A stretch of 59,520 nt of DNA, taken from assembly GCA_017474385.1 (NCBI GenBank), contig JAFVHU010000122.1, positions 1 through 59,520 of the forward strand. Direction: 5' to 3'. Made by a program: the position numbers and the translations under genes. The DNA is from Afipia sp. Its GTDB lineage: Bacteria; Pseudomonadota; Alphaproteobacteria; Rhizobiales; Xanthobacteraceae. Positions 4,981 through 57,271 of this stretch are shown here, in pieces. Below the pieces are notes generated by a model. The model had not been told where the DNA came from, ran no database searches, and saw only the letters and a program-made list of their open reading frames with translations. Position 1 is the stretch's first letter. Every line of letters starts with the position of its first letter.

Positions 4981-5140
4981 GTGTCCCGTATCCGACGTTC
5001 GCTTCACTTTGCAGCACCTCCCGAGCGAACGTCGGATACGAAAGGACACCAGCAAATTATAACTCTAGTGATCCTTTGGTTCTGACATTCGTAAAGGCGC
5101 CGGCTGAGAAATGATACGAATGTCAGAACCGGATCACTAG
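4981..5140. repeat. Composite double-hairpin repeat, copy 1
   Basis: Two long inverted repeats lie in tandem. Hairpin A (4981-5049) has outer arms GTGTCC/GGACAC and exact inner arms GTATCCGACGTTCGCT and AGCGAACGTCGGATAC. Hairpin B (5065-5140) has outer arms CTAGTGATCC/GGATCACTAG and exact inner arms GGTTCTGACATTCGTA and TACGAATGTCAGAACC. The same layout recurs near 27.5 kb and 57.2 kb. The B end supplies the TAG stop of the transglutaminase-like gene; the A end abuts the start of the next gene on the minus strand. Confidence 0.95.
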
Positions 5141-5958
5141 CTGGCCTTGGATTCCATAACCTCGTCACTCACGATGACGAACTTGTTCAGCACCATCTGC
5201 CCGAAGGTCGTCGAGATTGCAACGTCTGCGGCATCGCGGCCGATCCCCAACAGGATGCGGCCGATCCGCGGCTTGTTGTGACGCGCATCGAACGTGTACC
5301 ACTTGCCGGAAAGATAGACCTCGTACCAGCCGGACAGATCCATCGGCGCCGGGTCATAGGGAATGCCGATGTCACCCATGTAGCCGGTGACATAACGCGC
5401 CGGGATATTCATGCAGCGGCACAGCGTCAGCGCCAGATGCGCGAAATCGCGGCAGACACCCTGCTGTTCTTCAAAAACATCGAAGGCGGATTTGGTCGGC
5501 CGCGCCTGCTGGTAGTCAAACCGCACATGGTTGTGCACCCATGCATTGATCGCCTGCACGCGCGCCCATCCGGGCGGCGTGTTGCCGAACTGCGACCACG
5601 CGAAGTCGGTCAGGCGATCGGTCTCGCAATAACGGCTCGCCATCAGATAGAGCAGGACTTCGTCGGGCAATTGCTCGACCGGCATCTGCTGCGCTTCGGG
5701 GACGATCGCATCCGGCATGCCGGTGTCACGCACCAGCGCATCGGCGCGGAACGTGATGCCGCCCGGCGGCGCGGTCAGCCGCCCGCAAATGTTGCCGAAC
5801 GTGTCGTGATAATAGCGGATGGGCACATTCGGCTCGGTGATGACCGTCTCCTCGCCGACAATATCCCGGGCGCGGGATGGATGAATCCGCATCATCACAA
5901 CCATCGGCGTTTCCGCCACGGCGCCATAGGAAATTTCGAATCCGACGCGGATCAGCAT
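5137..5958 (-). CDS. Transglutaminase-like protein
   Basis: A 273-residue protein with an N-terminal beta region (LIRVGFEISYG...) and a transglutaminase core. The nucleophile Cys sits in QQGVCRDFAHLALTL and the Asp in WYTFDARHNKPRIGR. At the position where relatives have the catalytic His (HAW before the EVY strand) this protein reads MDLSGWYEVYL, so the triad may be incomplete. Its ATG overlaps the stop of the upstream paralogue (ATGCTGA, 7 bp), so the two are translationally coupled. The TAG stop lies inside the composite repeat. Probably a cytoplasmic protease or amidase-like enzyme rather than a crosslinker. Confidence 0.85.
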   Translation of the reverse strand: MLIRVGFEISYGAVAETPMVVMMRIHPSRARDIVGEETVITEPNVPIRYYHDTFGNICGRLTAPPGGITFRADALVRDTGMPDAIVPEAQQMPVEQLPDEVLLYLMASRYCETDRLTDFAWSQFGNTPPGWARVQAINAWVHNHVRFDYQQARPTKSAFDVFEEQQGVCRDFAHLALTLCRCMNIPARYVTGYMGDIGIPYDPAPMDLSGWYEVYLSGKWYTFDARHNKPRIGRILLGIGRDAADVAISTTFGQMVLNKFVIVSDEVMESKAS

Positions 5959-6851
5959 GCTGCTTCCTCTACGTCTTCCCCGACCGAGAGGACGTGAATG
6001 GTGACGTCCATGCCAAGATGGGCGTCGGCGGACCCCATATAGGTGCCGTGCAACGGAATCGCCTGTTGTGGATCGCGCGCCACCGCGACGCGAATGAGAT
6101 CGCGGCTGCCGACAATGCCGTTGGTCGGATCGAACTCGATCCAGCCCGCCCCCGGCAGATAGGCCCGCACCCAGGCGTGGGTCGAGCCGCCGCCGACATA
6201 ACCGTGTGCTTCATCGCCGGGGATGAAGATATAGCCGCTGACGAACCGCGAGGCGATGCCGAGGCGGCGCAGCGCCTCGATCATGAACAGCGCGAAATCG
6301 CGGCAGGTGCCTGAACCAATACTCAAGGTGTCGAGCGGGTGCTGGGTGCCGTGCTCGTGGCGCTTGCGGTAGCCGAACGACTCCCGGACGCCATGGGTCA
6401 TGCCAACCAGCAGATCGATCGTTCTGGTCCGGCTTCCGTCACTGAGAAACTGCCGCGCCCACGCCGCCAGCGCACCGTCGGGATCGCAGTATTGCGGCGT
6501 CATCGACGGCGTGAGGTCGGTCAGTTCATCATGATCGTAGAAGAACGGGTAGTAATAGGCCTGGTCATCGGGCGTCAGGACGATGTTCTCGAGCGGATAG
6601 TGGTCGACGGTGACGGTCGAGTCGAACACCAGCCGGTCCGCCTCGATGTCGAAATCGGCGATGGCGACGCTGTTGCCGAAAACATCGTGAATGCGGCGCA
6701 GCGAAGACGGCTGCGGCGAGATGTCGAGCCGTTCCGACAGCACACGGATGTCGTGGCCGTCGCGCGGGCGCAGCATGATCCGGTGCTCGCCGAACGCCAC
6801 CGGCCGGTCGTAGCGATACTCGGTTTTGTGGTGGATCGTCAGCAGGGGCAT
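5952..6851 (-). CDS. Transglutaminase-like protein with N-terminal domain
   Basis: A 299-residue protein. It begins with the bacterial transglutaminase N-terminal domain (LTIHHKTEYRYDRPV, LRPRDGHDIRVL) and continues with a complete core: Cys in GSGTCRDFALFMIEALRR, His in STHAWVRAYL and Asp in WIEFDPTNGIV. The full Cys-His-Asp triad is present, unlike its downstream partner. The ATG at 6851 (MPLLTIHHK) is preferred to a start 14 codons upstream because the domain begins there. It forms a two-gene unit with the next gene and is divergent from the N-formylglutamate amidohydrolase. Confidence 0.88.
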   Translation of the reverse strand: MPLLTIHHKTEYRYDRPVAFGEHRIMLRPRDGHDIRVLSERLDISPQPSSLRRIHDVFGNSVAIADFDIEADRLVFDSTVTVDHYPLENIVLTPDDQAYYYPFFYDHDELTDLTPSMTPQYCDPDGALAAWARQFLSDGSRTRTIDLLVGMTHGVRESFGYRKRHEHGTQHPLDTLSIGSGTCRDFALFMIEALRRLGIASRFVSGYIFIPGDEAHGYVGGGSTHAWVRAYLPGAGWIEFDPTNGIVGSRDLIRVAVARDPQQAIPLHGTYMGSADAHLGMDVTIHVLSVGEDVEEAAC

Positions 6852-6961
6852 CGTCTTGCTCAGGCTGATTGAATTCGTCTGCGAATCGTACATGCTGTTT
6901 TTGCTGCATTTCCGGCTAATTGTTGGGCTTGGATGCCGCTGTGATAGGCAACGAAAGCAAA

Positions 6962-7774
6962 ATGGCCCTGCCCGCTCCAGCCGACACTTTACGACTCCTT
7001 GGCGACGACGAAGTTCCCCCCGTGCTCGAGGAAAATGCCGGCAGCCGCTCGCCGTTCTTTTTCACCTGCGATCATTACGGCCGGCTGATCCCGCGCGCGC
7101 TCGGCGATCTCGGCGTCCACGCCGGCGAACTGGAGCGGCATATCGCATGGGACCTCGGCATTGCCGAGGTCGCGACCTGGCTGGCCAAGGAGATGGACGT
7201 GCATCTGATCGCGCAGCGCTATTCGCGCCTCGTGATCGACTGCAATCGCCCGTTCGACAGCCCGGGCTCGATTCCGCTGATCAGCGAGGCGACGGAAATT
7301 CCCGGCAATGGCGGGCTGACCCGCGAGCAGGTGGCGGAGCGGCAGCGCGCGGTGTTTCTGCCCTATCACACACGGATCGCGCAGGCGCTCGACGCGCGCA
7401 AGGCCAGCGGCCTGCCGACCATTGTGGTGTCGCTGCATTCATTCACGCCGGTCTATGCCGGCATCGCGCGGCCCTGGCACATCGGCACGCTGTACAACCG
7501 CGACGGCCGGCTGCCGCATCTGTTGCGCGACAAGCTGCGCCATGAGGGCGATCTCGTGGTCGGCGACAACGAGCCTTATGCGGTGAGCGATGCGACCGAC
7601 TACACCATCCCGGTGCACGCCGAAAAGCGCGGGCTGATGAATACCGGCATCGAGATCCGGCAGGATTTGATCAGCGACCAGTCCGGCCAGCATCAATGGG
7701 CGGAGCGGCTCTCGCGTCTGCTGCGCGAGATCGAGGAAGGGCTGCACGCCAAGAAGCTGATGCCCGCCGAGTGA
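6962..7774 (+). CDS. N-formylglutamate amidohydrolase family protein
   Basis: A 270-residue zinc amidohydrolase of the HutG-like N-formylglutamate family. Visible family motifs are FFFTCDHYGRLIPRALGDLG, HIAWDLGIAEVATWLA, YSRLVIDCNRP, TIVVSLHSFTPVYAG and the late PVHAEKRGLMNTGIEIRQD. The metal-binding His and Glu residues lie in these stretches. Start is the ATG at 6962; an upstream start adds 14 unrelated residues. No histidine-utilisation genes are nearby, so the physiological substrate is open. Confidence 0.87.
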   Translation: MALPAPADTLRLLGDDEVPPVLEENAGSRSPFFFTCDHYGRLIPRALGDLGVHAGELERHIAWDLGIAEVATWLAKEMDVHLIAQRYSRLVIDCNRPFDSPGSIPLISEATEIPGNGGLTREQVAERQRAVFLPYHTRIAQALDARKASGLPTIVVSLHSFTPVYAGIARPWHIGTLYNRDGRLPHLLRDKLRHEGDLVVGDNEPYAVSDATDYTIPVHAEKRGLMNTGIEIRQDLISDQSGQHQWAERLSRLLREIEEGLHAKKLMPAE

Positions 7775-7778
7775 GGCG

Positions 7779-8393
7779 CTAGCGCGCCCGTGTCAGGGCG
7801 AGCCAGATGCCGCCGCCGATCATGAAGCCGCCGGAGATGCGCGACACCAGCCGCACCCGCCGCGCCGACAGCAGCTTGCCTGCACGGCCCGCCAGCAGCG
7901 CGTAGGCGCCGTCGGACAGGGCTGCGATCACCGTGAAGGTGACGCCAAGCAATGCCACCTGAGGCAGATGATCCTGCTGCATGTCGACGAACTGCGGAAT
8001 GAACGCGCCGAAGAACACCAGCACCTTCGGATTGCTGAGCAGCACCAGAAAACCCTGAAGGAAGAATCCGCCGCGCGGTGGCGGCGGCGCGTCGGTTGCC
8101 GATAGCGCGCCGCTCGACCGGAACAGCTTGATGCCGAGCCAAACGAGATACGCCGCGCCGGCGAACCGCACCCACTCGAACCAGTAGCCCATCGTCGCCA
8201 TCAGCGATGTCAGGCCGACGGCGATGATCCCGATAATGATCACAAGTCCCACCTGCGCGCCGGCAATATTGGTGAGCGCCGCACGAGTGCCGTAGCGAAG
8301 GCCGTTGGCGATCACGAGCGTGACGATCGGACCCGGCAGGATCGCGAGCGCGACACAGGCGGCGACATAGGCAAGATAGACCTGAAGCGACAT
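7779..8393 (-). CDS. LysE/RhtB family amino-acid exporter
   Basis: A 204-residue inner-membrane protein of the LysE superfamily. The N-terminus AILPGPIVTLVIANGLRYGTRAAL carries the family's first-helix Pro-Gly-Pro and the following basic loop. About six membrane segments can be drawn. GFLVLLSNPKVLVFFGAFIPQF is the conserved Asn-Pro-Lys motif of the third segment. It probably exports an amino acid or small metabolite. It ends 4 bp from the convergent amidohydrolase and is divergent from the ArsR gene. Confidence 0.9.
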   Translation of the reverse strand: MSLQVYLAYVAACVALAILPGPIVTLVIANGLRYGTRAALTNIAGAQVGLVIIIGIIAVGLTSLMATMGYWFEWVRFAGAAYLVWLGIKLFRSSGALSATDAPPPPRGGFFLQGFLVLLSNPKVLVFFGAFIPQFVDMQQDHLPQVALLGVTFTVIAALSDGAYALLAGRAGKLLSARRVRLVSRISGGFMIGGGIWLALTRAR

Positions 8394-8484
8394 GAAATTC
8401 TCCGATGCGTGAGGCGCATCAAAGGATCAGACGCCGCGCAAAAGCAAGCGGTCCAGCCGGCGCGCAAATGATTTCGGTCGTCGC

Positions 8485-8514
8485 TTGACATGCAACCATT
8501 TGGTTGCCTATTAT
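8485..8514 (+). promoter_or_regulatory. ArsR-type promoter with palindromic operator
   Basis: TTGACA (8485-8490) and TATTAT (8509-8514) are 18 bp apart. The spacer holds a perfect palindrome, GCAACCA-TT-TGGTTGC (8492-8507). The start codon at 8522 lies where transcription should begin, so the mRNA is probably leaderless. The placement fits autorepression by the ArsR protein. Confidence 0.75.
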
Positions 8515-8521
8515 TCCGGCC

Positions 8522-8836
8522 ATGGACGAGGTCTTCAAGGCACTTGCGGACGCATCGCGGCGCTCATTGCTGGACCGGCTTCACGCCCGCAACGGGCAGA
8601 CATTGGTTGAGCTTTGCGACGGCCTCGCCATGACGCGGCAGGCCGTGACCAAGCATCTCGGGATTCTTGAAGACGCCAATCTCGTGACCACGCTCAAACA
8701 CGGCCGCGAGAAGCTGCACTACCTCAATCCCGTTCCGATCCATGAGATCGGCGAACGATGGATCAGGAAATTCGAGCGCAGCAAGCTCGCCGCGCTCAGC
8801 GAACTCAAACGTCAACTGGAGAAGCGTGATGCGTAA
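8522..8836 (+). CDS. ArsR family transcriptional regulator
   Basis: A 104-residue winged-helix repressor. Its recognition region is MTRQAVTKHLGILEDANLV, and the wing is TTLKHGREKLHYLNPVPI. There is no Cys-rich metal motif, so it belongs to the non-metal branch usually paired with SRPBCC proteins, as here. I choose the ATG at 8522 (MDEVFKALADASRR); an upstream start would overlap the promoter. No Shine-Dalgarno is visible, consistent with a leaderless message. It overlaps the following gene by 8 bp. Confidence 0.92.
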   Translation: MDEVFKALADASRRSLLDRLHARNGQTLVELCDGLAMTRQAVTKHLGILEDANLVTTLKHGREKLHYLNPVPIHEIGERWIRKFERSKLAALSELKRQLEKRDA

Positions 8837-9329
8837 ACCCGAATTCGTCTATGTGACTTTCATCAAGACCACGCCGGAGAAACTCTGGCATGCCCTGACC
8901 AACACGGCATTCACCGAAAGCTACTGGTTCGGTTGCAGCCTGACCTCGGACTGGAAGGTCGGCTCGCGCATGCATATGGACAGGGCCGGCAAGGTGGTGA
9001 ACGAGGGCTTTGTGCTCGAATCCGATCCGCCGCGCCGGCTGTCCTATAGCTGGCTGTCGGTTTTCGATGCAGAGATGATCAAGGAACGCCCCTCGCGCGT
9101 GACGTTCGTGCTTGAGCCCAGCGACGGCGCGGTCAAGCTCACCGTGACCCACGAGGATTTCGCGGAGGGCAGCAAGACACTGCCGAGCATTTCCGAAGGC
9201 TGGCCGCTGGTCCTCTCCAGCCTCAAGAGCGTGCTGGAAACCGGAAAACCGCTGGCGATCAAAATGGAGCCGCCGAAGCGGATGCTGGAGGCACTGAAGA
9301 AGCTGGGGATTAAAGTGCCGGGAGTGTAA
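8829..9329 (+). CDS. SRPBCC/AHSA1 domain protein
   Basis: A 166-residue START-like (AHSA1) protein. The N-terminus FVYVTFIKTTPEKLWHALTN and the late GWPLVLSSLKSVLETGKPL are typical of the family, whose deep cavity binds hydrophobic ligands. The start ATG lies inside the end of the ArsR gene, so translation is coupled. The ArsR-SRPBCC pair is common, but the ligand and role are generally unknown. Confidence 0.9.
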   Translation: MRKPEFVYVTFIKTTPEKLWHALTNTAFTESYWFGCSLTSDWKVGSRMHMDRAGKVVNEGFVLESDPPRRLSYSWLSVFDAEMIKERPSRVTFVLEPSDGAVKLTVTHEDFAEGSKTLPSISEGWPLVLSSLKSVLETGKPLAIKMEPPKRMLEALKKLGIKVPGV

Positions 9330-9349
9330 CGTCGGCTCCATCCTCAATC

Positions 9350-9423
9350 GTCATACGCGGGCTTGACCCGCGTATCCATTCTGTTTCGAAAAGATGGATT
9401 GCCGGGTCAAGCCCGGCAATGAC
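9350..9423. repeat. Palindromic repeat, GTCAT...GGGCTTGACCC type, copy 1
   Basis: A long inverted repeat. GTCAT, GCGGGCTTGACCCGC and ATCCAT on the left mirror ATGGAT, GCCGGGTCAAGCCCGGC and ATGAC on the right. The same element recurs at 16422-16496. Short intergenic palindromes of this type are abundant in Bradyrhizobium relatives. It lies between convergent genes. Confidence 0.9.
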
Positions 9424-9443
9424 GAATTCGGTTGATCGACTTG

Positions 9444-11054: not shown

Positions 11055-11099
11055 GACGGAGTCTTCCAGAGGCAAAACGACACGTCGTCTGACTTTCAC

Positions 11100-11229
11100 C
11101 TCTCCCCGTTTACGGGGAGAGGTCGAAGACCGAGCGTAGCGAGGTTTTCGGGTGAGGGGCAATTGCGAGGGCGGCCCCTCACCCGCTCACCTGAAGGCTC
11201 GCGACCTCTCCCCGCTTGCGGGGAGAGGT
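11100..11229. repeat. CTCTCCCCG-type palindromic repeat cluster
   Basis: Three nested palindromes: CTCTCCCCG/CGGGGAGAG (11100-11121), GTGAGGGGC/GCCCCTCAC (11152-11182) and CCTCTCCCCGC/GCGGGGAGAGG (11206-11229). The same CTCTCCCCGC motif recurs at 39155-39313. It fills the gap between yqeY and the acyl-CoA synthetase. Confidence 0.85.
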
Positions 11230-11241
11230 AAAGAAAAGCAA

Positions 11242-11697: not shown

Positions 11698-11769
11698 CGG
11701 TCTCTCCCTCGCGGCAAATCAGATTGCCGTTCATTTAGGTCGTTTTGCGAGCCCGCACAACCAACGCCG

Positions 11770-12471
11770 TCACATCTCCAGCCAATCGCGCAGTGCAGCG
11801 GTCACGGCTTCCGGCTGCTCGATCGGCGACAGATGCCCGCAATCCGCCACCGTGATGAGCTTCGCGCCTGCGATACCGTTCGCGATCTCGACCGACATCC
11901 GGCTCGGAACACTGTTGTCTGTATCGCTGGTCATGACCAGCGTCGGGCATTTGATCGCCGCCAGCATCGGCCGCGAGTCCGCCCGCGTCATGATCGCCTC
12001 CACCTGCCAGACGAAGGCATCGGGTCCGGTATCGTCCGCCATGTCGGTCACGATGGCCTTCAGACGTGCGTCATTGGCCCGCGACGGATGCACGGCGCCG
12101 GCAAACATCGCGTCCATCATCGCGCGGTAGCCGCCCTGCTTCACCTTTGCGATCAGGCCGCGCCAGAACTCGGCGAACGCCGGCGTCTCGGGATGCGCAT
12201 AGGTGTTGAGCAGCGCCAGCCGCGCGATGCGCTCGGGCGCCTGCCGGAACATCTCGAACACGATAGCACCGCCCATCGAATGGCCCGCGAGCGCAAAACG
12301 CAACGGCGCTTCCATCAGAATGCGCCGCGCGATCGCCGCCATGTCGCCGCCGCGGGCGTGGTTGGCGAGAAACACCGGCCCTCTCCGCCATAATGCGGGA
12401 ATCTGCGGATCGTAGATACGCGACGAACACGCAAGGCCGGGAACGAGCACGACGGGAAGCGCGCCGGTCAT
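11770..12471 (-). CDS. Alpha/beta hydrolase, tandem copy 2
   Basis: A 233-residue alpha/beta hydrolase. The nucleophile is Ser65 in LAGHSMGGAIVF, with an oxyanion segment LVPGLACSSR, a late Asp in MTSDTDNSVPS and the catalytic His in VADCGHLSPIE. I use the ATG at 12471, which gives exactly the length of the upstream paralogue. A GTG at 12480 overlapping that gene's stop (GTGA) is an alternative and would couple translation. It is very similar to its neighbour along its whole length. The substrate is unknown. Confidence 0.85.
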   Translation of the reverse strand: MTGALPVVLVPGLACSSRIYDPQIPALWRRGPVFLANHARGGDMAAIARRILMEAPLRFALAGHSMGGAIVFEMFRQAPERIARLALLNTYAHPETPAFAEFWRGLIAKVKQGGYRAMMDAMFAGAVHPSRANDARLKAIVTDMADDTGPDAFVWQVEAIMTRADSRPMLAAIKCPTLVMTSDTDNSVPSRMSVEIANGIAGAKLITVADCGHLSPIEQPEAVTAALRDWLEM

Positions 12472-12476
12472 GAAGG

Positions 12477-13178
12477 TCACATCTCCAGCCAGTCGAGCAG
12501 CGCATCGGTCACCGCCTGCGGCTTCTCAAGCTGCGTGAGATGACCGCAATCCTGAATGGTGACCAGCTTCGCGCCCGGAATGGCGCTCGCGATCTCGCTT
12601 GATGCATCGGGCGGCATCATGTTGTCGGTGTCGCTGGTCAGGACCAGCGTCGGGCACTTGATCGTCGCCAGCGTCGGACGGGAGTCGATGCGCCCCGTGA
12701 TCGCCTCGAGTTGCCAGACGAAGGCATCGGGACCGACATCGTCCGCCATGTCGAGAACGATGCGATGCAGATGCTCGTCGCGCGCCAGCGCGGGATGCAC
12801 GAAGTTCGCAAACAGGCGGTCCATCACGGCACGATAGCCGCCCTGCTTCACTTCCTGGATCATCACCCGCCGCTTCTCGGTGACCTCCGGCGCTTCGGGC
12901 CGCGCCGATGTGTTCAGGAAGGCCAGCCGTGAAATGCGCTCGGGGGCCTGACGGAACATTTCAAAGATGATGTAGCCGCCCATCGAATGGCCCGCGAGCG
13001 CGAAGCGCAGCGGCGCTTCGGCGAGAATGCGCCGCGCGATCGCGGCCATGTCGCCGCCGCGGGCATGGTTGGCGATGAACACCGGACCTTGCCGCCACAG
13101 CGACGGAATCTGCGGATCATAAATCCGCGGCGAACACGCAAGACCGGGAACCAGCACGACGGGAAGCGAATTGGGCAT
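12477..13178 (-). CDS. Alpha/beta hydrolase, tandem copy 1
   Basis: A 233-residue hydrolase nearly colinear with the following gene. Ser65 lies in LAGHSMGGYIIF, Asp in LTSDTDNMMPP and His in IQDCGHLTQLE. The ATG at 13178 (MPNSLPVVLVPG) matches the paralogue's start; a longer frame adds ten residues. Divergence between the copies is concentrated in the cap (about residues 95-140), the part that selects substrate. The pair looks like an old tandem duplication with specialised caps. Confidence 0.86.
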   Translation of the reverse strand: MPNSLPVVLVPGLACSPRIYDPQIPSLWRQGPVFIANHARGGDMAAIARRILAEAPLRFALAGHSMGGYIIFEMFRQAPERISRLAFLNTSARPEAPEVTEKRRVMIQEVKQGGYRAVMDRLFANFVHPALARDEHLHRIVLDMADDVGPDAFVWQLEAITGRIDSRPTLATIKCPTLVLTSDTDNMMPPDASSEIASAIPGAKLVTIQDCGHLTQLEKPQAVTDALLDWLEM

Positions 13179-13203
13179 GCAAACTCCGATACGTTTCCTG
13201 CTC

Positions 13204-13341
13204 GTCATCCTTCGAGGCTCGCAAGTGCTCGCACCTCAGGATGACGTCTTAACCTGTTTCGTCACCCTGAGGTGCCGTAGCCAACGGGTCCGCGCAAAGC
13301 GCGGCCCGATGATAAACTCCGCGAAGGCCTCGAAGGGCGAC
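13204..13341. repeat. Palindromic repeats, GTCATCCTTCGAGG and GTCACCCTGAGG types
   Basis: The first element (13204-13246) reads from CGTCATCC through TCGCAAGTGCTCGC to GGATGACG as an interrupted palindrome. The second (13261-13341) pairs GTCACCCTGAGG with CCTCGAAGGGCGAC. This is a familiar dispersed palindrome type in Nitrobacteraceae. It occupies the gap between two minus-strand genes. Confidence 0.75.
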
Positions 13342-13356
13342 GGCCCACTGTATCCA

Positions 13357-14949: not shown

Positions 14950-14966
14950 GGATATGTCTCCTGCCA

Positions 14967-15014
14967 GAGCGCGATCAGCAAAAGTGGAAACCGGTTTTGC
15001 GTTCGATCGCGCTC
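14967..15014. repeat. GAGCGCGATC palindromic repeat
   Basis: GAGCGCGATC (14967-14976) is mirrored by GATCGCGCTC (15005-15014), with CAAAA/TTTTG inner arms around AAACCGG. It begins 18 bp upstream of the acyl-CoA ligase start and so would be in its 5' leader. Confidence 0.8.
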
Positions 15015-15124
15015 CTAAAATACCAGGGACGCTAGATCTTTTCGCCAAACCGCCCACACTTTGGCGGATCACGCGTTACCACAGCTCTTCGGCCGGCTGC
15101 GTGGGGGCGCAGATTAGGGTTCTC

Positions 15125-16414: not shown

Positions 16415-16421
16415 TTTCTCT

Positions 16422-16496: not shown

Positions 16497-16516
16497 AGTC
16501 AGCAAACCGGGCGGCC

Positions 16517-25576: not shown

Positions 25577-26542
25577 ATGGCCGCTCCCATTCATGCCAAG
25601 GTTGTCATCATCGGTTCGGGACCGGCGGGTTACACAGCCGCGATTTACGCCGCACGCGCTATGCTCGAGCCCGTGCTGATCCAGGGCATTCAGCCCGGCG
25701 GCCAGCTCACCATCACCACCGACGACGAAAACTATCCGGGATTTGCCGACGTCATCCAGGGCCCCTGGCTGATGGAGCAGATGGAAAAGCAGGCGGCGCA
25801 TGTCGGCACCAAGATCGTCACCGATCACGTCAACAAGCTCGAGTTGAGCCGGCGCCCGTTCCGCATCACCACCGACAGCGGCGACGTTTATCTCGCTGAC
25901 GCCGTGATCCTCTCCACCGGCGCGCAGGCGCGCTGGCTCGGCATTCCGTCGGAAGAGAAGTTCAAGGGCTTCGGCGTCTCGGCCTGCGCGACCTGCGACG
26001 GCTTCTTCTACCGCAACAAGGAGGTGTTCGTGGTTGGCGGCGGCAACACCGCCGTCGAGGAAGCACTGTTCCTCACCAACTTCGCCTCGCATGTCACGCT
26101 GGTTCATCGCCGCGACAGCCTGCGCGCCGAGCGTATCTTGCAGGACCGCATGTTCAAGCATCCCAAGATCAGTGTGATCTGGGACAGCGAGGTCGACGAA
26201 ATCCGCGGCCAGGACAATCCGTCCAAGGTGACCCACGTCCGCCTCAGGAATCTCAAAAGCGGTACCGTGACCGAACACGCCGCCGACGGCGTGTTTATCG
26301 CGATCGGCCACGCGCCGGCGACGGAACTCGTCACCGGCCAGTTGAAACTGAAATCGTCCGGCTACGTCGAGATCGCACCACATTCCACCGCGACCTCGGT
26401 GCCCGGCGTCTTCGCCGCGGGCGATGTCGCGGATGAAACCTATCGCCAGGCCGTGACGGCTGCGGGCCTCGGCTGTATGGCGGCGCTGGAAGCGGAACGC
26501 TTCCTGGCGCACAGCGCAACCGAACGCGCAGCGGCGGAGTGA
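25577..26542 (+). CDS. trxB: Thioredoxin reductase TrxB
   Basis: The 321-residue flavoenzyme passes electrons from NADPH to thioredoxin. Motifs: FAD loop IIGSGPAGYTAAIYAARA, redox pair Cys137/Cys140 in SACATCDGFFY, NADPH loop VVGGGNTAVEEALFL, and the late FAD segment GVFAAGDVADETYRQ. The ATG at 25577 has AAGGGTCGG upstream. The lysR gene follows within a few bases, so the two are cotranscribed. Confidence 0.96.
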   Translation: MAAPIHAKVVIIGSGPAGYTAAIYAARAMLEPVLIQGIQPGGQLTITTDDENYPGFADVIQGPWLMEQMEKQAAHVGTKIVTDHVNKLELSRRPFRITTDSGDVYLADAVILSTGAQARWLGIPSEEKFKGFGVSACATCDGFFYRNKEVFVVGGGNTAVEEALFLTNFASHVTLVHRRDSLRAERILQDRMFKHPKISVIWDSEVDEIRGQDNPSKVTHVRLRNLKSGTVTEHAADGVFIAIGHAPATELVTGQLKLKSSGYVEIAPHSTATSVPGVFAAGDVADETYRQAVTAAGLGCMAALEAERFLAHSATERAAAE

Positions 26543-26544
26543 CC

Positions 26545-27468
26545 ATGGCTCGAACACGCGACGGATTAAGCGATATGGATTGGGACAAGCTGAAGGTCTT
26601 CCACGCGGCTGCGGAAGCGGGAAGCTTCACGCACGCGGGCGAACAACTCGGGCTGTCGCAGTCGGCCGTCTCGCGCCAGGTCAGCGCGCTGGAGCAGGAA
26701 CTGGCGGTCTCGCTGTTTCACCGCCACGCCCGCGGACTGATCCTCACCGAACAGGGCGACCTTCTGTTCCGCACCGCGCATGACGTGTTCATGCAGTTGC
26801 AGGCGGCCCGCGCCAAGCTCACCGACAGCCGGGAGCGGCCGAGCGGCGACCTCAAGGTCACCACCACACCGGGCGTCGGCATCAACTGGCTGATCCCGCG
26901 GCTTGGCGAGTTCACCGCGCTGTATCCGGACATCCGTATTTCACTGATCGTGACCGATGAGGAACTCGATCTGTCGATGCGCGAAGCCGACGTTGCGATC
27001 CGCACCCGCAAGCCGACCCAGCCGGATCTCATTCAGCGCAAGCTGTTCTCGATGGGCTTCCATGCCTATTGCTCGCCGGAATACGTCAAGCGCCACGGCA
27101 CGCCGCGCACGCTGGATGAGCTGGACGCGCACCGGATCATCGTCCTCAGTGACCAGAACGTGCCGCAGCACCTGCAAAACCGGAACTGGCTGATCGAGGC
27201 CAATACCAACGGCTCCGGCCCGCGCGAGCCCGTCTTCAAGGTCAACAACATCCTGGGCCTGGTGCGTGCCTGCCAGCAGGGCCTCGGAATTGCGGCGCTG
27301 CCGGACTATCTGGTCGAGGACAATAACCGGCTGGTGCAGCTGTTCAGCGAGGCGGACTCGATTCAATTGGATACGTATTTTGTTTATCCCGAAGAATTGA
27401 AGTCGGTGGCGCGCGTGCAGGTTTTCCGTGATTTTATCGTGAGTAAGGCGCAACGCTGGCCGTCCTAG
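26545..27468 (+). CDS. LysR family transcriptional regulator
   Basis: A 307-residue regulator. The N-terminal winged helix contains WDKLKVFHAAAEAGSFTHAG and QLGLSQSAVSRQVSALEQEL; the effector domain has GVGINWLIPRLGEF and ACQQGLGIAALPDYLVED. The start may be ATG 26545 or 26575; a GTG at 26539 would overlap the trxB stop. It lies directly downstream of trxB, so redox-linked control is a reasonable guess. Its TAG stop coincides with the start of composite repeat copy 2. Confidence 0.93.
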   Translation: MARTRDGLSDMDWDKLKVFHAAAEAGSFTHAGEQLGLSQSAVSRQVSALEQELAVSLFHRHARGLILTEQGDLLFRTAHDVFMQLQAARAKLTDSRERPSGDLKVTTTPGVGINWLIPRLGEFTALYPDIRISLIVTDEELDLSMREADVAIRTRKPTQPDLIQRKLFSMGFHAYCSPEYVKRHGTPRTLDELDAHRIIVLSDQNVPQHLQNRNWLIEANTNGSGPREPVFKVNNILGLVRACQQGLGIAALPDYLVEDNNRLVQLFSEADSIQLDTYFVYPEELKSVARVQVFRDFIVSKAQRWPS

Positions 27469-27623
27469 TGTCCCGTATCCGACGTTTGCTTCATGTTGCA
27501 GCGCCGTCCGAGCAAACGTCGGATACGAAGGACACTAGTAAATAATGATTCTAGTGATCCTTTGGTTCTGACATTCGTAAAAATGCCCGCGAAAGATACG
27601 TACGAATGTCAGAACCGGATCAC
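27466..27623. repeat. Composite double-hairpin repeat, copy 2
   Basis: Same order and structure as copy 1. Hairpin A is bounded by CTAGTGTCC and GGACACTAG; its inner arms, GTATCCGACGTTTGCT and AGCAAACGTCGGATAC, differ from copy 1 by one base in each arm, and the change keeps the pair. Hairpin B starts at CTAGTGATCC and has inner arms identical to copy 1. The A end provides the lysR stop codon. Its orientation relative to the flanking gene is opposite to copies 1 and 3. Confidence 0.95.
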
Positions 27624-27699
27624 GAGCCGGGTTAAAACGGACGTTTGAGCCCGCATCCTGAGCATGACTGACATACCGGGATCGGAGTTGTCCGCATGG

Positions 27700-39145: not shown

Positions 39146-39314
39146 CTCACCCCAACCCTCTCCCCGCAAGCGGGGAGAGGGAGTGCATCTCGTATGACCT
39201 GCGCTCATCGTTCCCTCCCCCCTTGCGGGGGAGGGTCAGGGTGGGGGGTAAGTCGCACACACCGAAACCTTATCTACCCCCCTCTCCAACTCTCCCCCGC
39301 AAGGGGGGAGAGAG
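39146..39314. repeat. CTCTCCCCGC/CCCTCCCCC palindromic repeat cluster
   Basis: Three palindromes lie here: CCTCTCCCCGC/GCGGGGAGAGG (39157-39180), CCCTCCCCC/GGGGGAGGG (39213-39236) and CTCTCCCCC/GGGGGGAGAG (39290-39313). They are related to the cluster at 11100-11229. They lie between two genes of one transport system, where they may lower expression of the permease relative to the binding protein. Confidence 0.8.
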
Positions 39315-50961: not shown

Positions 50962-51029
50962 GCGGAGATGATCTCCGACGGCCATCATCGCGAGTCAAGT
51001 GTTGCGGTGTTCGGGCAGTCAGGGACGCG

Positions 51030-53753
51030 TCAGCCGGCTCTGCGCGGGAGTTTCGAGACGTTCGTGCCCGAAACGCTCTTGGGGCGGCCAATCCACTCGG
51101 CGTAGTTCTCAATCGGCGCAGGCTTGCCGAGGAAATACCCCTGCACCTGATCGCAGGCTTCGTCCGCAAGGAAGGCAAGCTGTTCCTGGGTTTCGACGCC
51201 TTCCGCAACGATGGAGATGTTGAGGCCGTGGCCAAGTCCGATCATGGCGCGGATGATCGCGGCGGACTGCGTGTTGCGCCCCAGATTCATCACGAAAGCG
51301 CGGTCGATCTTGATCTTGTCGAACGGGAACGCCTGCAGGTAGGTCAGCGAGGAATAACCGCTGCCGAAATCGTCCATGGCAATCCGCACGCCGAGCGCCT
51401 TCAGCCGCCGCAGCAATGAGAGCCCGCGGTCGAAATCCTCGATCAGCACACCCTCGGTGATCTCAAGCTCCAGCCGGCCCGGCGCGAGGCCGGTCTCGAT
51501 CAGGATGGAATGAACCAGGCCGACGAGATCGCCGTGCATGAACTGCGCCGGCGACAGGTTGACCGAGATTTGCAGGTCCTTCGGCCACGACGCCGCCTCG
51601 CGGCAGGCTTCGCGCAGAATCCACTCGCCCATCTCGACGATCAGGCCGCTTTCTTCCGCGAGCGGAATGAAATCGCCGGGCGGAACGAAGCCGCGCACCG
51701 GATGGGTCCACCGCGCCAGCGCCTCGAAACCGAGAACGTGATCGGCCTTCATCTTGTGGCGCGCGCGGGCCTGCGGCTGATAGTGCAGCGACAGTTCGCC
51801 GTTCCTGATCGCGGTCGACAGTTCCTGATGCAGCGCGCGGCGGTCGCGGAGCTGCTGGTCGAGCTCCATATCGAAGAAATTGATGGAGCCGCGCGCTTTC
51901 GTCTTGGCCCGGAACAAGGCGGCGTCGGCGTTGGTGAGCAATGTTTCGGCGTCGCGGCCATTGCGCGGGTACACCGAGATTCCGATGGTCAGACCGATGC
52001 GAACCGCACGGCCCTCGAACGTGAATTCGGTCTGCATCGACTGCATCAGGCGCGTGGCAAGCGCCTTGGCGGAATCGGGCTGAAGGCCATCGATGATAAG
52101 ACCGAACTCGTCGCCGCTGAGACGCGCAACGACGCCACCGGAAATGACCGATTCAAGACGCCGCGAGAATTCGATCAGCAACTGGTCGCCGACCTCGTGG
52201 CCGAACACATCGTTGATTTCCTTCAGCCGGTCGAGATCGAGCGACAGCACCGCGAATTCCTCGTCGGTGTCCTCGCAGGCGTCGATCATCTGCTCCAGGG
52301 CCTGGAGGAACGCCGCGCGGTTCGGCAGTTCTGTCAGCGCATCGTGATAAGCCATGTGGGCCATGCGCGACTCGGTTTCGCGCCGGTCGGTGATGTCTTC
52401 GTTGGTCTTGATCAGATATTGCGGCTCACCGGCCTCGTCGAGCACGGTCACGCGCCGGGTCAGGAACAGACGCAGCCCGTTTTCGGTCTGGATCGGATGC
52501 TCCTCGGTGACAACGCCCTTCTTGCGGACGGCGTCCTCGTCGCGCTTGAGCATGAGCCGCACATCGGCCGGATTGTAGATGTCCTCGAGCGTGGCGCCGA
52601 TAACGTCCTCGCGCCTGCGGGTCAGCATCGCCTCGGCGGCGCGGTTGGCGAGGACATACTGGCCGTCGCTCAGCCGCTTGACGACAAGCGAGACCGGAAT
52701 GTTGTCGACCACCAGTTCCAGGAATTTCTTCGCGCTTTGAATCTCGCGCGTCAGGGACCGGCGATCGGTCACGTCCTCGAACAGGGAAACCAGGAATTCC
52801 GGCTTGCCCTTTTCGTCGCGCGCGATCATACGGTTGCAAGCTATCAGGCGTCTGGCGCCATTGTGCTCGATGGACAATTCGGTGCGCGTCTGGCCGGTCG
52901 GCGAAACAATCGCGTCGCGGTCAGCCTCCGCCACTGCCAGTGCCGCTTCCGGCACGTAAACCTTCTCCGCGGTGTGGCCGATGATCTGATCGCGGCTCAG
53001 CCCGGAGAATTGCTCGAACGCGCGGTTGGCGAGAATATATCTGCCATCCTCGATGCTTTTGGCCGCGACACAGACCGGAATGTTGTCGATGACCGATTCA
53101 AGGAAGTGCGTGGTGGTCGCAAGCTGCCGGGACATTTTGCGCTGTGCGGTGCAATCCCCGTGCGTCGACACCGTTCCGCCGTTGGCCAGCTTTCGATGCT
53201 TGATCAGGATCGAGCGGCTATCGGAAAGCTCGCAGATGTGCCCATCCGTATGCTCAACGTTGCGATAGTAAGTGTCGAGCAGCCCATCGAACATGCCGCG
53301 CTGTTTCCGCAAATCCAGAAGATCAGGCCCCGTCATTCCGGGGAAAAGGTCGAAGCGGTCCAGCCCATAGATTTCCAGATAACGGTCGTTGCAGAACACG
53401 ACGCGCTTGTGCGCATCGAGCATCACTATGCCGGTGGTCAGGTTGTTAAGGGCGCTGGAGACAAAAGCCGCACGCCGGATATTGGCGTGACGCGCGCGCC
53501 GCAGCGCGGTCGAGACCCAGAGAATGATCGCGGCAAGAAACGCGGCGACCACGAAGCCGCCCATTGCCACCTGCCACACGAGCGCGGTGTTCGAGATCTC
53601 CAGCGCCGTTGCGGAGAACGAGCCATCGGGATTGGCGACGATCTGCGCGGCAGCGCTGCCCGGCGCCAAAATATTGGCGCAGAGACACGCGGCGGCCCAC
53701 ACCGGGCTCGCTGTGGTCGCTCGTGCTTGCTTCTGCCAGCCGGTCATTACCAT
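51030..53753 (-). CDS. Multi-PAS GGDEF-EAL c-di-GMP protein
   Basis: A 907-residue signalling protein. A signal-like hydrophobic N-terminus and a second membrane segment (VWQVAMGGFVVAAFLAAIIL) bracket a short periplasmic loop. Three PAS domains follow (about 100-210, 215-330, 340-455). The GGDEF domain has SGDEF in the active loop (VARLSGDEFGLII), a tolerated variant, with no I-site. The EAL domain is complete: LGFEALARWTHP, LEITEGVLIED, IAMDDFGSGYSSL, IVAEGVETQEQ. Probably a phosphodiesterase, perhaps with cyclase activity. Confidence 0.93.
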   Translation of the reverse strand: MVMTGWQKQARATTASPVWAAACLCANILAPGSAAAQIVANPDGSFSATALEISNTALVWQVAMGGFVVAAFLAAIILWVSTALRRARHANIRRAAFVSSALNNLTTGIVMLDAHKRVVFCNDRYLEIYGLDRFDLFPGMTGPDLLDLRKQRGMFDGLLDTYYRNVEHTDGHICELSDSRSILIKHRKLANGGTVSTHGDCTAQRKMSRQLATTTHFLESVIDNIPVCVAAKSIEDGRYILANRAFEQFSGLSRDQIIGHTAEKVYVPEAALAVAEADRDAIVSPTGQTRTELSIEHNGARRLIACNRMIARDEKGKPEFLVSLFEDVTDRRSLTREIQSAKKFLELVVDNIPVSLVVKRLSDGQYVLANRAAEAMLTRRREDVIGATLEDIYNPADVRLMLKRDEDAVRKKGVVTEEHPIQTENGLRLFLTRRVTVLDEAGEPQYLIKTNEDITDRRETESRMAHMAYHDALTELPNRAAFLQALEQMIDACEDTDEEFAVLSLDLDRLKEINDVFGHEVGDQLLIEFSRRLESVISGGVVARLSGDEFGLIIDGLQPDSAKALATRLMQSMQTEFTFEGRAVRIGLTIGISVYPRNGRDAETLLTNADAALFRAKTKARGSINFFDMELDQQLRDRRALHQELSTAIRNGELSLHYQPQARARHKMKADHVLGFEALARWTHPVRGFVPPGDFIPLAEESGLIVEMGEWILREACREAASWPKDLQISVNLSPAQFMHGDLVGLVHSILIETGLAPGRLELEITEGVLIEDFDRGLSLLRRLKALGVRIAMDDFGSGYSSLTYLQAFPFDKIKIDRAFVMNLGRNTQSAAIIRAMIGLGHGLNISIVAEGVETQEQLAFLADEACDQVQGYFLGKPAPIENYAEWIGRPKSVSGTNVSKLPRRAG

Positions 53754-53958
53754 TCCGCGGAATTCTTCATCCCGCAGTGTCTGGCTGTACCTCTTTGGAT
53801 CGGGTAAACGCGTAATCGCGGCCCCCGGACATTATGACTTAAATGCGGGCAAATGGCCGCTTATGCTTAACCAAATCCTAACGCGGACAGCATCGCAAAG
53901 CGGCGCACTGAACATAGAATGAGCAAGAAACGAATCGTTCCGGCAAAGCGAAGCATCC

Positions 53959-55065
53959 ATGGACAGAATTGAGTGTGTCGTCGTCGGCGCCGGCGTGGTC
54001 GGGCTCGCCGTTGCACGCAACCTGGCGCGCGCGGGTCTTGAGGTCGTCGTGGTCGAGGCCGCCGGAGACATCGGGACCGGCACATCGTCGCGCAACAGCG
54101 AGGTGATCCACGCCGGAATCTACTATCCCGCGGGCAGTCTGATGGCGCGGATGTGTGTTGCCGGCAAACAGGCGCTCTATGCCTATTGCGACGCCCACGG
54201 CGTGCCGTACCGGCGCTGCGGCAAGCTGATCGTCGCGACCGCAGCCAATGAGGACGAGAAGCTGGTTTCGATCAAGTCGCATGCCGAAGCCAACGGCGTT
54301 GACGATATGCGCGTGTTGTCGGCGGCCGAAGCGCGCTCGCTCGAGCCCGCCCTGCATTGCACCGGCGCGTTGCTGTCGCCATCCACCGGCATCGTCGACA
54401 GCCATGCCTATATGCTGGCGCTGCGCGGCGAGATCGAGGATGCCGGCGGCGCACTCGCGTTTCACGCGCCGCTCAAGCGCGCGAAAGCCGTGGCCGATGG
54501 TTTTGAAGTGGAGATCGGCGGCGATGCGCCGATGACGCTTGCGTGCCGCATCCTGATCAACTCGGCCGGGCTCAATGCGCCTGGAATTGCGCGCGCCATC
54601 GACGGCATGCCGGCCGATCGCATTCCGGTGAGCTATTACGCCAAGGGCAACTATTTCAGTTGCAGCACGCGCGCGCCGTTCTCGCACCTGATCTATCCGG
54701 TGCCGGAGCCCGGCGGCCTCGGCGTGCATCTGACCATCGATCTCGGTGGTCAGGCGAAATTCGGCCCTGACGTCGAATGGGTGGACACGCTCGACTACGC
54801 CGTCGACCCCGCGCGGGCCGAGCGGTTCTATCCGGCGATCCGCCGTTACTGGCCAACGCTTCCCGACGGCGCCCTGGCCCCGAGCTATTCGGGAATCCGG
54901 CCCAAGATCGTACCGCCCGCCGTGGCGCGGCAGGATTTCGTGATCCAAGGCCCGCAGGACCATGGTCTTGCGGGGCTGGTCAACCTGTTCGGGATCGAGT
55001 CGCCCGGCCTGACCTCATCCCTCGCCATTGCGGACGATGTGGCTCAACGCGCCGGAGCGGTGTAG
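53959..55065 (+). CDS. FAD-dependent oxidoreductase, L-2-hydroxyglutarate oxidase-like
   Basis: A 368-residue DAO-family flavoprotein. The FAD loop is [40 protein letters not shown] is the hallmark of the L2HGDH/LhgO group, where the His is near the flavin; the end has [20 protein letters not shown]. It probably oxidises an L-2-hydroxyacid and feeds electrons to quinone. The ATG at 53959 has no strong Shine-Dalgarno. It is divergent from the PAS-GGDEF-EAL gene. Confidence 0.87.
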
Positions 55066-55160
55066 CCTCTCAGCCGCACGCGCCACCGCTCCTCGCAACG
55101 GCAACTGTTGCCGTTACGAGCATCGCGTTGAATCGCTTGTGGGATTCGGTAGTGGAAAAG

Positions 55161-55337
55161 TCAGTGGACCGTTGCGAGCTTGATACGCTCGATTTGGTCC
55201 TTGAGCACCAGCTTGCGGCGCTTGAGTTCGATAATCTGGAGGTCGTCGGTGGAAAGATGCTGGAGAGCATCGTGCAATTCGTTTTCCAGAACTTCGTGTT
55301 TACGTTCCAGTTCAACGAGATGCGCCTGAATCGCCAT
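55161..55337 (-). CDS. DUF465 (YdcH) family protein, 58 residues
   Basis: A short gene with an excellent Shine-Dalgarno (AAAGGAGACTTCT before the ATG). The 58-residue product begins MAIQAHLVELERKHEVLEN and has LQIIELKRRKLVLKDQIERI, the charged helical hairpin of DUF465/YdcH. A longer frame over the same DNA is a shadow. The function is unknown in general. A second DUF465 gene lies 252 bp away, divergently. Confidence 0.9.
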   Translation of the reverse strand: MAIQAHLVELERKHEVLENELHDALQHLSTDDLQIIELKRRKLVLKDQIERIKLATVH

Positions 55338-55589
55338 AGAAGTCTCCTTTGTGAGTGGACCTCAGATCGGATCTGGACGGCCAAGTCTACATGACCGGAG
55401 CCGTCTGTCGACAGCGGAGTCAAAACAACCGTTCAAAATTTTCGTACACAAAGGAAACGAATTGTGAGGGAACCCGCCCCGCGATACCGTCGCTAGTACT
55501 CCACTGGAGTTGGTAACGATTTTCTGCAATGACGATCATGCGGAAGCGTTCTGAGACACTTACCTGAAAGTCTGGGCAAATTCAGTCAA
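55338..55589. promoter_or_regulatory. Gap between divergent DUF465 genes
   Basis: The 252-bp gap must hold two promoters. On the plus strand GGAAC (55469-55473) and CGCT (55491-55494) are 17 bp apart, an imperfect EcfG-type promoter (consensus CGTT). No strong sigma-70 pair or hairpin is evident. Confidence 0.25.
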
Positions 55590-55805
55590 ATGACGGTTAT
55601 GGTAGATCAGGACAACAACGAATACGCGCTTGAACTGGCGCAGTTGCAGCAGGAGCATCGCGACCTGGACGCCGCCATCGAGGCGCTGCATCAGTCGCCC
55701 GCGCCGGACCTGCTCAGATTGCAGCGTTTAAAAAAACGCAAGTTGCAGTTGCGCGACCGGATTTCATTTATCGAAGACCAGATCACGCCTGACATCATCG
55801 CCTGA
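55590..55805 (+). CDS. DUF465 (YdcH) family protein, 71 residues
   Basis: A 71-residue acidic-basic helical protein: YALELAQLQQEHRDLDAAIE, then LLRLQRLKKRKLQLRDRISF with IEDQI. The Lys/Arg core KKRKLQLRDRI mirrors the RRKLVLKDQI of its divergent neighbour, so the two are paralogues. The start is ATG 55590 or 55599. The function is unknown. Confidence 0.87.
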   Translation: MTVMVDQDNNEYALELAQLQQEHRDLDAAIEALHQSPAPDLLRLQRLKKRKLQLRDRISFIEDQITPDIIA

Positions 55806-55838
55806 TTTTGCGTCACGACGCCGCAGCATGATGCAGTC

Positions 55839-56540
55839 TCAGAGAACTGCCTGCGCGCGGCCTCCTCGCCGCAATGCCTTTCGCACATACATCGCGCGGT
55901 CGGCCGCCTCCATCACATCAGCGACATTGTCCGCAACACCGATCAGCGCAATGCCCGCGGATGCGCCCGCGACCACGGGTCCTCCCTTGAAAACAAATGT
56001 GAGCTGATCGATGGCCTGTTCAAGTGCCGCCGCTTTCGCCAGCGCATCGGCCTCGGTCAAATTCCAGAGCAGCAATCCGAATTCGTCGCCGCCGAGCCGG
56101 CCCACCACATCCGATGAGCGGACATGACGCATCAGAACAGCGACCACGCCCTTGAGCACGATATCGCCGGCCGCGTGACCGAAGGTGTCGTTGATCGGCT
56201 TGAGGCGATCGACGTCGAGCACGATCAGCGCGCCGCTCGCCTTGTAGCGCCGGATGTAGGCGATCGAGCGGTCAAGCTCGCGTTCGAAGCCGCGGCGGTT
56301 GTAGATGTTCAGCAGGAAGTCAGTATCGGCCCAGGCCTGAAGTTCGTCGATCCGGGCCTCGGCCGCGGCGAGTTCCGCCTTCAGGGCCGCGACCTGCCGC
56401 CTGGCTTTGGCCGCCGATGAGGCCGTTGCAGGTTTGCGCTTGGGGTTGGCGGATACCTTGCTGCGGGGCACCGCCGCACGCTTCGACGGCTTCTTCGCCG
56501 CAGTGCGTCGCATTGCCGCTTTTCTGCCCGGTTTCTTCAA
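55839..56540 (-). CDS. Diguanylate cyclase with basic N-terminal tail
   Basis: A 233-residue (from TTG 56540) or 224-residue (from ATG 56513) protein. The first 50 residues are Lys/Arg/Ala/Pro-rich (KPGRKAAMRRTAAKKPSKRA), followed by a short coiled coil (RQVAALKAELAAAEARIDEL). The GGDEF domain is complete: TDFLLNIYNRRGFERELDRS, VLDVDRLKPINDTFGHAAGD, GRLGGDEFG, with the product-inhibition I-site RSSD five residues upstream. There is no membrane or known sensor domain. Activity is very likely; the tail could bind nucleic acid. Confidence 0.9.
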   Translation of the reverse strand: MKKPGRKAAMRRTAAKKPSKRAAVPRSKVSANPKRKPATASSAAKARRQVAALKAELAAAEARIDELQAWADTDFLLNIYNRRGFERELDRSIAYIRRYKASGALIVLDVDRLKPINDTFGHAAGDIVLKGVVAVLMRHVRSSDVVGRLGGDEFGLLLWNLTEADALAKAAALEQAIDQLTFVFKGGPVVAGASAGIALIGVADNVADVMEAADRAMYVRKALRRGGRAQAVL

Positions 56541-56656
56541 TTTACCGCCCCGCCGTTGACCATGAAAGGATAACGGATTCGCGTTAGCTTGCCACGCAGG
56601 GACGCAACCCTATAATCCGCCCCTCTTTTTCCGGCCTTTTTGAAGATTCCGTCCAA

Positions 56657-57142
56657 ATGACCACCCCCGTTGCCATTATCATGGGAAGCCAGTCCGACTG
56701 GGAAACCATGCGCCATGCCGCAGAGACCCTGACCGCCCTCGGCGTTTCGCATGAGGCGCGCATCGTCTCGGCGCACCGCACCCCCGAGCGGCTCTACAGC
56801 TTTGCCAAGGGCGCCAAGGCGGCCGGGTTCCAGGTCATCATCGCAGGCGCCGGAGGTGCTGCGCATCTGCCCGGCATGGCGGCGGCTTTGACGGAACTTC
56901 CGGTGTTCGGTGTGCCGGTGGAATCCAAGGCGCTGTCGGGCGTGGATTCGCTGTACTCCATTGTGCAAATGCCCGCCGGAATCCCGGTCGGCACCTTGGC
57001 GATCGGAAAGTCCGGCGCTATCAATGCCGCCCTGCTCGCCGCAAGCGTTCTGGCGCTCAACGATGCCGGCCTTGCAACCCGGCTTGCAACATGGCGCAAG
57101 CAACAGACCGAGGCCGTGAGCGAGCGCCCAAAGGACGCCTAG
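56657..57142 (+). CDS. purE: 5-(carboxyamino)imidazole ribonucleotide mutase PurE
   Basis: The 161-residue class I PurE converts N5-CAIR to CAIR in purine synthesis. Motifs: [34 protein letters not shown] and [19 protein letters not shown]. Its TAG stop lies at the edge of composite repeat copy 3. In most genomes purE and purK overlap or nearly touch; here the repeat separates them by 136 bp. Confidence 0.97.
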
Positions 57143-57271
57143 TGATCATTGGTTCTGACATTCGTTTCAGAACCAAAGGATCACTAGAATTGTAATTTAC
57201 GAGTGTCCTTTCGTATCCGACGTTCGCTCGGAAGGCGCTGCAGAGTGAAGCGAACGTCGGATACGGGACAC
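57140..57271. repeat. Composite double-hairpin repeat, copy 3 (reverse orientation)
   Basis: On this strand the order is hairpin B then A. Hairpin B starts TAGTGATC and has an internal deletion, leaving GGTTCTGA/TCAGAACC arms around CATTCGTT. Hairpin A (57203-57271) has GTGTCC/GGACAC and the same exact 16-bp inner arms as copy 1. The B end overlaps the purE stop; the A end is 7 bp before the purK start codon. Confidence 0.95.

Follow-up and report, generated by a model that had tools for sequence, protein, structure and literature searches.

The 59,520-nucleotide (nt) stretch of an Afipia sp. genome analysed here (GCA_017474385.1, contig JAFVHU010000122.1, positions 1 to 59,520; hereafter the window) carries three copies of a composite repeat of about 160 bases in all, which is an inverted dimer of a single 75-78 nt hairpin module. 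Our preferred reading, held with a confidence that lies midway between doubt and assurance, is a non-autonomous, CTAG-targeted mobile element resembling REPINs (paired repetitive extragenic palindromic, REP, sequences), in which the moving unit is the inverted dimer of the bulged, CTAG-footed module. Such a dimer would insert at CTAG, leaving one CTAG where the site is empty and CTAG at both ends where it is filled, a pattern seen at several sites. It may move as extruded single-stranded hairpins, with the foot, the TTT bulge and the stem recognised by an enzyme supplied in trans. In function, this putative mover would correspond to the IS200/REP single-strand transposases, without being a recognisable PF01797 protein in most hosts tested. 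Template switching in hairpin DNA may rewrite the feet, and selection or a binding protein may preserve the stem. At the level of sequence comparison, mobility is supported because there are many copies, orthologous empty sites and CTAG at the empty junctions.

Read on its own strand, the module runs CTAG-TG-N3/4-TTT bulge, a stem of about 16 bp, the loop, the returning stem and CACTAG, with a bulge-free 3' arm and 26 paired positions in the module covariance model. The minus-strand module forms hairpin A and the plus-strand module hairpin B; in copies 1-3 the two are separated by 12 nt of AT-rich spacer. Element bounds, set from the feet and the covariance model, place the following features in the window:

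4978..5140, plus strand: copy 1, full inverted dimer, A then B
4978..5052, minus strand: copy 1 module A, feet CTGG/CCAG (82.4 bits on minus versus 50.4 on plus)
5065..5140, plus strand: copy 1 module B, feet CTAG/CTAG (81.1 bits)
5137..5140: copy 1 outer foot CTAG, whose minus-strand TAG is the stop of a transglutaminase-like gene at 5137-5958 (PF01841)
27465..27626, plus strand: copy 2, full inverted dimer
27465..27538, minus strand: copy 2 module A, feet CTAG/CTAG, with a compensated C-to-T/G-to-A stem pair
27551..27626, plus strand: copy 2 module B, feet CTAG/CGAG
27465..27468, plus strand: copy 2 outer foot CTAG, whose TAG (27466-27468) is the stop of a LysR-type regulator gene at 26539-27468 (Pfam match)
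57139..57274, minus strand: copy 3, reversed dimer with a shortened B hairpin
57139..57187, minus strand: copy 3 module B, 49 nt left after deletion of the loop and upper stem
57200..57274, plus strand: copy 3 module A, feet no longer pairing
57139..57142, plus strand: copy 3 outer foot CTAG, whose TAG (57140-57142) is the stop of purE at 56657-57142 (PF00731)
55492..55508, plus strand: CTAGT, 3 nt and CCACTGG, perhaps left behind by a lost copy, at a position where a relative's locus (L083) has a full dimer

The single-module architecture is visible in both strand preference and loop sequence. With one model of 60 modules, the full-length hairpins of the window score higher on the minus strand for A and on the plus strand for B, and both hairpins show the same preference in the 36 full dimers of the complete same-genus genome G012. 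The loops of A and B have a common core in the module alignment, and the two hairpins therefore look like diverged copies of one ancestor. Folded as DNA, the five full-length window hairpins have z values of -6.7 to -9.5 and the shortened sixth has -8.3; module E-values for the five range from 2.5e-18 to 6.2e-15, with copy 2 B being part of the model training set. The feature is far above chance level. Non-foot pair counts in alignment A1 do not serve as evidence of covariation, its modules having been chosen by a pairing-demanding grammar.

The initial annotation had described three composites in the fixed order A then B. The composite structure is confirmed at all three places and is far more numerous genome-wide; the order holds for copies 1 and 2 but not for copy 3, which reads B then A on the plus strand. 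The A feet it gave, CTAGTGTCC/GGACACTAG, are intact in copy 2 only; copy 1 has CTGG/CCAG, and copy 3, read on the A-to-B strand, has TTCG against CTCG, which do not pair. Its TTT bulge in B stands, whereas the A bulge is AAA in copies 1 and 3 and AA in copy 2, and reading A on the other strand gives it the same plan as B. The compensatory pair that it noted in copy 2 is present (GTTTGC/GCAAAC). An Rfam search of the window at the gathering score returned one tRNA only, and the element matches no curated RNA family.

Searches beyond the window rule out a chance three-copy repeat, both genome-wide and order-wide. The window's own genome (4.48 Mb, 162 contigs) holds the element in at least 37 distinct places among 44 matches, and the module model found further places. 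DNA searches gave matches in 24 of 25 same-genus genomes (own included), with 0 to 29 matches per genome among those listed, in 69 of 198 genomes at the family level and in none of 16 genomes of other families. At the order level, the module model matched 47 of 297 genomes and 26 of 123 genera, with 41 of those 47 genomes outside the family. An exact-pattern scan of named genomes found at least 109 stretches, and the 80 listed included 41 from Afipia, 20 from 'Hyphomicrobiales bacterium' and four from Nitrobacter. The inverted doublet appears to be the unit: the 42 copies examined in 41 loci of G012 comprise 36 full minus-then-plus dimers, one copy without most of B and five halves. Each of five G012 loci (L263, L264, L269, L271 and L273) has half an element, which stops close to the hairpin loop and gives the impression of a cut and rejoining there.

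Some sites are occupied in one genome and empty in another. At the purE/purK site of copy 3, the element is absent from 11 of the 16 genomes searched and present in three (G012, G018 and G019), the other two having no match there. In the empty G017, the TGA stop of purE overlaps the GTG start of purK; the window's purE ends at the TAG of the element foot, two codons shorter, and the purK open reading frame (ORF; PF02222) starts at 57279, just past copy 3. For 20 further copies of the own genome, the joined flanks were compared with nine genomes (50 loci examined, from among the matches listed), giving a spanning ortholog for 19 sites and none for L010. At six of the 19 sites, at least one ortholog has a CTAG no more than 10 nt from the junction; counted over orthologs, the figure is 11 of 51, compared with 138 of 6610 control windows (2.1%). 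At sites 9, 11, 24 and 27, the junction CTAG is found in two or three genomes. Sites 7, 11 and 16 show flank-CTAG-flank in the ortholog and flank-CTAG-element-CTAG-flank in the filled copy, and site 24 has the same pattern one base off; at site 27, three orthologs have CTAG and the filled copy keeps it in the right foot only. In addition, 13 dimers were recognised in 20 loci examined from genomes G353, G290 and G435, and two in G353, 3.1 Mb apart, are 99.4% identical with 300-nt flanks only 62% alike, as for shuffled sequence. The proposal in the initial annotation of a non-autonomous mobile family is thus supported by further copies, by orthologous element-free sites in relatives and by this near-identical pair with unlike flanks.

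Several results weigh against a CTAG-targeted mobile element. Thirteen of the 19 sites lack a junction CTAG in every ortholog examined, some having CTGG, CTAC or unrelated letters; at such sites the target may be wider or the sites may have drifted. Outer feet that are both non-CTAG match no more often than by chance (5 equal of 34, versus 5.6 by shuffle), so that any target duplication would be confined to CTAG itself. The closest full copies are 94% identical in the own genome and 92% in G012, so that movement in the window's lineage and in G012 would be older, not recent. Precise loss could likewise leave some clean empty sites, and the single-stranded intermediate is itself putative. No mover was identified among the families searched (PF01797, IS481, IS630 and DDE_Tnp_1). 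Lastly, the outer CTAG coincides with an ORF stop at 21 of 131 element ends, compared with 47 of 252 background CTAGs, which is no excess.

The last comparison also rules out an element that seeks stop codons, the rarity of CTAG being enough. Each of the three window copies ends a Pfam-matching gene, whose TAG stop comes from an outer CTAG, and window-type dimers have two consecutive stops, TAG TGA, at their B end. Outside the elements, CTAG has a density of 0.26 per kb, versus 3.4 expected from base composition. By longest-ORF calls rather than annotation, the 139 copies analysed fall into 48 tandem, 29 divergent, 12 convergent and 50 unusable contexts, the divergent share being suspiciously high. 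On the same calls, 46 of the 85 CTAG ends with an incoming ORF of at least 100 codons have the outer TAG in frame with the longest such ORF, the other two frames accounting for 21 and 18. For the 48 tandem contexts, the upstream stop lies a median of 3 nt away and the next start a median of 4.5 nt away, and the transcript meets hairpin B first in 33. NCBI annotation shows a Roseibium short-chain dehydrogenase/reductase (SDR) gene and an Agrobacterium RraA gene, each with its last base at base 4 of the element. Copies are often fitted tightly between two genes, which the rarity of CTAG and its use as a TAG stop can account for; insertion at CTAG together with the loss of harmful insertions accounts for the stop-codon pattern, and the CTAG target alone explains the landing on stop codons with no further assumption. 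GTAG REPs have also been reported to supply stops (PMC3733652). A replication-strand bias was likewise rejected in G012 (21 versus 19 by eye, with the contig start taken as origin).

The CTAG at both ends, with one CTAG in clean empty sites, would also be produced by a miniature inverted-repeat transposable element (MITE), that is, an element derived by internal deletion from a cut-and-paste (DDE) insertion sequence for which CTAG is the target and is duplicated; its inverted repeats would be the outer hairpin arms, and the hairpins would be incidental. Relatives of IS630, IS481 and IS5 can prefer CTAG. Site 12 fits such an origin, with CTGG at either end of the element and also in the single ortholog examined, as do outer arms that are alike because A and B are diverged copies of one module. 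Like bacterial DDE MITEs, the element is short and gene-free, with inverted ends and CTAG at both ends as a possible target duplication. It differs, however, in having two complete hairpins whose inner feet and bulge are conserved, which a MITE would not need, and in lacking a parent in the families searched. No gene was found within any of the 42 G012 copies examined, full dimers being too small for one and the partial copies inspected showing none that was recognisable. G012 has no IS630 or DDE_Tnp_1 match; IS481 exceeds the cut-off in one of 16 genomes, with some match at E 0.001 in 15 of 16, and is only weak in G012. Family searches (in G012, and in 16 genomes for IS481) thus do not support IS481, IS630 or IS4/IS5-type parents. 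No module occurs in 55 transposase loci (183.6 kb), with other transposase families outside the search. No recurrent neighbour gene was recognised by eye in the 25 largest of the clusters formed by 1164 flanking ORFs. A MITE origin is accordingly rated unlikely, though it deserves serious consideration; a trans-acting enzyme working on hairpins is tentatively favoured over a MITE with a lost parent.

The initial annotation had pointed to movement by a REP-associated tyrosine transposase (RAYT; Y1 type, PF01797), and part of this comparison is sound. The bulged hairpin with a foot tetranucleotide, the inverted doublet and the TAG stop are all REP-like features (PMC3733652, PMC3116915 and PMC8266576), and PF01797 matches occur in three of 16 same-genus genomes, two of them near the cut-off, compared with five of 14 in control rings. 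The transposase link is not supported: PF01797 has no match in 13 of the 16, including G000 (84% complete) and the complete G012 with at least 36 full dimers. The matching hairpin that the initial annotation suggested seeking beside a Y1-type transposase was likewise not found, as L238-L240 around the Y1 matches have no module and L238-L242 no dimer-profile match (1.5 kb flanks). The foot is a paired CTAG rather than an unpaired GTAG, and 26 pairs per module compare with stems of 6-13 bp in GTAG families, as given in PMC3733652. A RAYT-moved REP/REPIN family is consequently regarded as very improbable.

A further question is whether the element is kept for host use. Twenty-one insertion sites are common to at least two full copies with both flanks alike, providing a natural experiment that separates RNA-kept from DNA-kept pairing. 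Taking one pair per shared site, 154 of 1196 loop bases (12.9%), 43 of 250 spacer bases and 468 of 4917 flank bases differ; the change per base is 13.1% in feet and 1.9% in stems. Among 168 foot pairs, 15 have changed on both sides to another Watson-Crick pair, versus 1.0 expected if the two sides were independent, and the remaining changed pairs comprise 14 one-sided and two two-sided changes without pairing. The 810 stem pairs show five two-sided changes with pairing, 21 one-sided and two otherwise. A-stem figures that include loci L049-L157 are biased, since an exact pattern spanning the 3' arm of this hairpin was used to fetch them; selecting the other loci through their resemblance to a window copy likewise favours conserved stems. 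At the ten sites without pattern-fetched loci, the A stem differs at 0.25% versus 10.5% for the A loop, and the B stem at 3.0% versus 14.8% for the B loop. Overall, stems change 5 to 40 times less than loops in shared copies.

The coupled changes appear to arise in DNA. Where both feet of a hairpin differ from CTAG, they are complementary to each other in 33 of 48 A hairpins and 38 of 52 B hairpins, compared with 10.3 and 8.7 in shuffles (137 of 139 copies, with all four feet readable). Mismatches over 6505 pair cells in the 139 copies comprise 81 G-U, 82 A-C and 78 other; on the transcript strand of the 48 tandem cases, with direction from rough ORF calls, they comprise 26 G-U and 23 A-C. Selection on pairing at the RNA level was rejected for want of a G-U preference, and, within these small numbers and rough gene calls, pairing looks DNA-based because RNA selection should favour G-U on the transcript. 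DNA template switching is described in PMC8794818 as a known source of both paired changes and stem repair. At one shared site, the loop of hairpin B is inverted between copies and the TTT bulge lost (L075 4585 onward versus L109 5582 onward); this single clear case among 148 distinct B loops, with one weak case among 144 A loops, fits template switching. The initial annotation took the compensatory pair of copy 2 as a sign that the fold had been selected or copied as a structure: coupled change is upheld, with no RNA-type wobble preference, and template switching can produce it without selection. The slow change of the stems is not explained by template switching, which suggests selection or a binding protein.

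These slow stems, far slower than the loops at the ten sites, are what one would expect of host-used, REP-like DNA elements under selection for protein binding or chromosome structure, with presence and absence reflecting mostly losses out of an old complement of copies; that copies do get lost is evident from halves and remnants. The nearly identical G353 copies in unrelated flanks and the CTAG at empty sites of several genomes argue against such an origin, and the range of matches per same-genus genome among those listed is a better fit to gain. Host use as the whole explanation is thus considered improbable.

REP-type repeats are common in bacteria, and their spread is understood mainly for RAYT systems. 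Compared with REPINs and bacterial interspersed mosaic elements (BIMEs), as outlined in PMC3116915, PMC3733652 and PMC8266576, the present element is alike in being a small non-autonomous hairpin unit forming an inverted doublet, with a foot tetranucleotide, a stem bulge and TAG-supplying termini. It differs in its longer module, its CTAG paired on both sides, its three-base bulge on one arm, the CTAG at empty sites and the lack of a PF01797 match in most hosts tested. GTAG REPs carry an unpaired GTAG (or GTGG) 5' of the hairpin, whereas the feet here are mostly CTAG and mutually paired; GTAG occurs in four of 138 B 5' feet and is then paired with CTAC. In the TnpAREP study (PMC8266576), a GTAG-to-CTAG change preserved binding by the Stenotrophomonas enzyme and lowered cleavage. 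The CGTC-tagged alphaproteobacterial repeats are also palindromes without an associated transposase, but they end in CGTC rather than CTAG and are presented in PMC3733652 as small REP-type repeats. Of the copies, 137 have four readable feet; none of these feet is CGTC, and 94 of the 137 copies are not CTAG throughout.

The RIME repeats of rhizobia and Bru-RS of Brucella, compared by description only, are likewise dispersed palindromic intergenic repeats, found in the same bacterial order. RIME1 is about 108 bp long with two palindromes. Bru-RS, also by description only, measures 103-105 bp (PMC2267715), versus about 160 bp here. No module match was found in the 450 of 1683 kb searched of Sinorhizobium meliloti pSymB. 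This plasmid carries a different perfect palindrome with CTAG at both feet (L381, 26222-26264), and a 221-base segment that includes it has matches in 164 plasmid records, of which 121 are from Sinorhizobium. No published description of a CTAG hairpin dimer was recognised among titles and abstract openings, a coverage that excludes most subscription journals and is therefore weak evidence of novelty.

Dimers of the same plan, with both modules in each of five records, occur on plasmids of Roseibium, Rhizobium, Agrobacterium, Martelella and Sphingobium sp. V4, the last outside the order. Copy 1 used as a query gave no plasmid match, and one 23-base pattern of the window-type dimer had no exact match in viral contigs. 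More tentatively than for the element itself, and short of an even chance, these records may belong to a superfamily of CTAG-targeting hairpin dimers across the alphaproteobacteria (at least Hyphomicrobiales and a Sphingobium plasmid). Such a superfamily would be moved in trans by a transposase outside the Y1/IS200 type or by a host hairpin enzyme; its feet would be rewritten in complementary pairs at about the neutral rate and its stem conserved as DNA, making it both mobile and maintained. With empty sites, a 4-bp target and no RAYT in most hosts tested, this widespread hairpin-dimer family makes its mover directly searchable.

Two other features of the window lie apart from the dimers. A short repeated palindrome, e.g. 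ACCTCTCCCCGTTTACGGGGAGAGGT, occurs at 11098-11123, 11204-11229 and 39156-39181, and is perhaps another small repeat family. In addition, alpha/beta hydrolase genes at 11770-13208 form a tandem duplicate, 707 nt apart, with matched stretches that are 75-78% identical.

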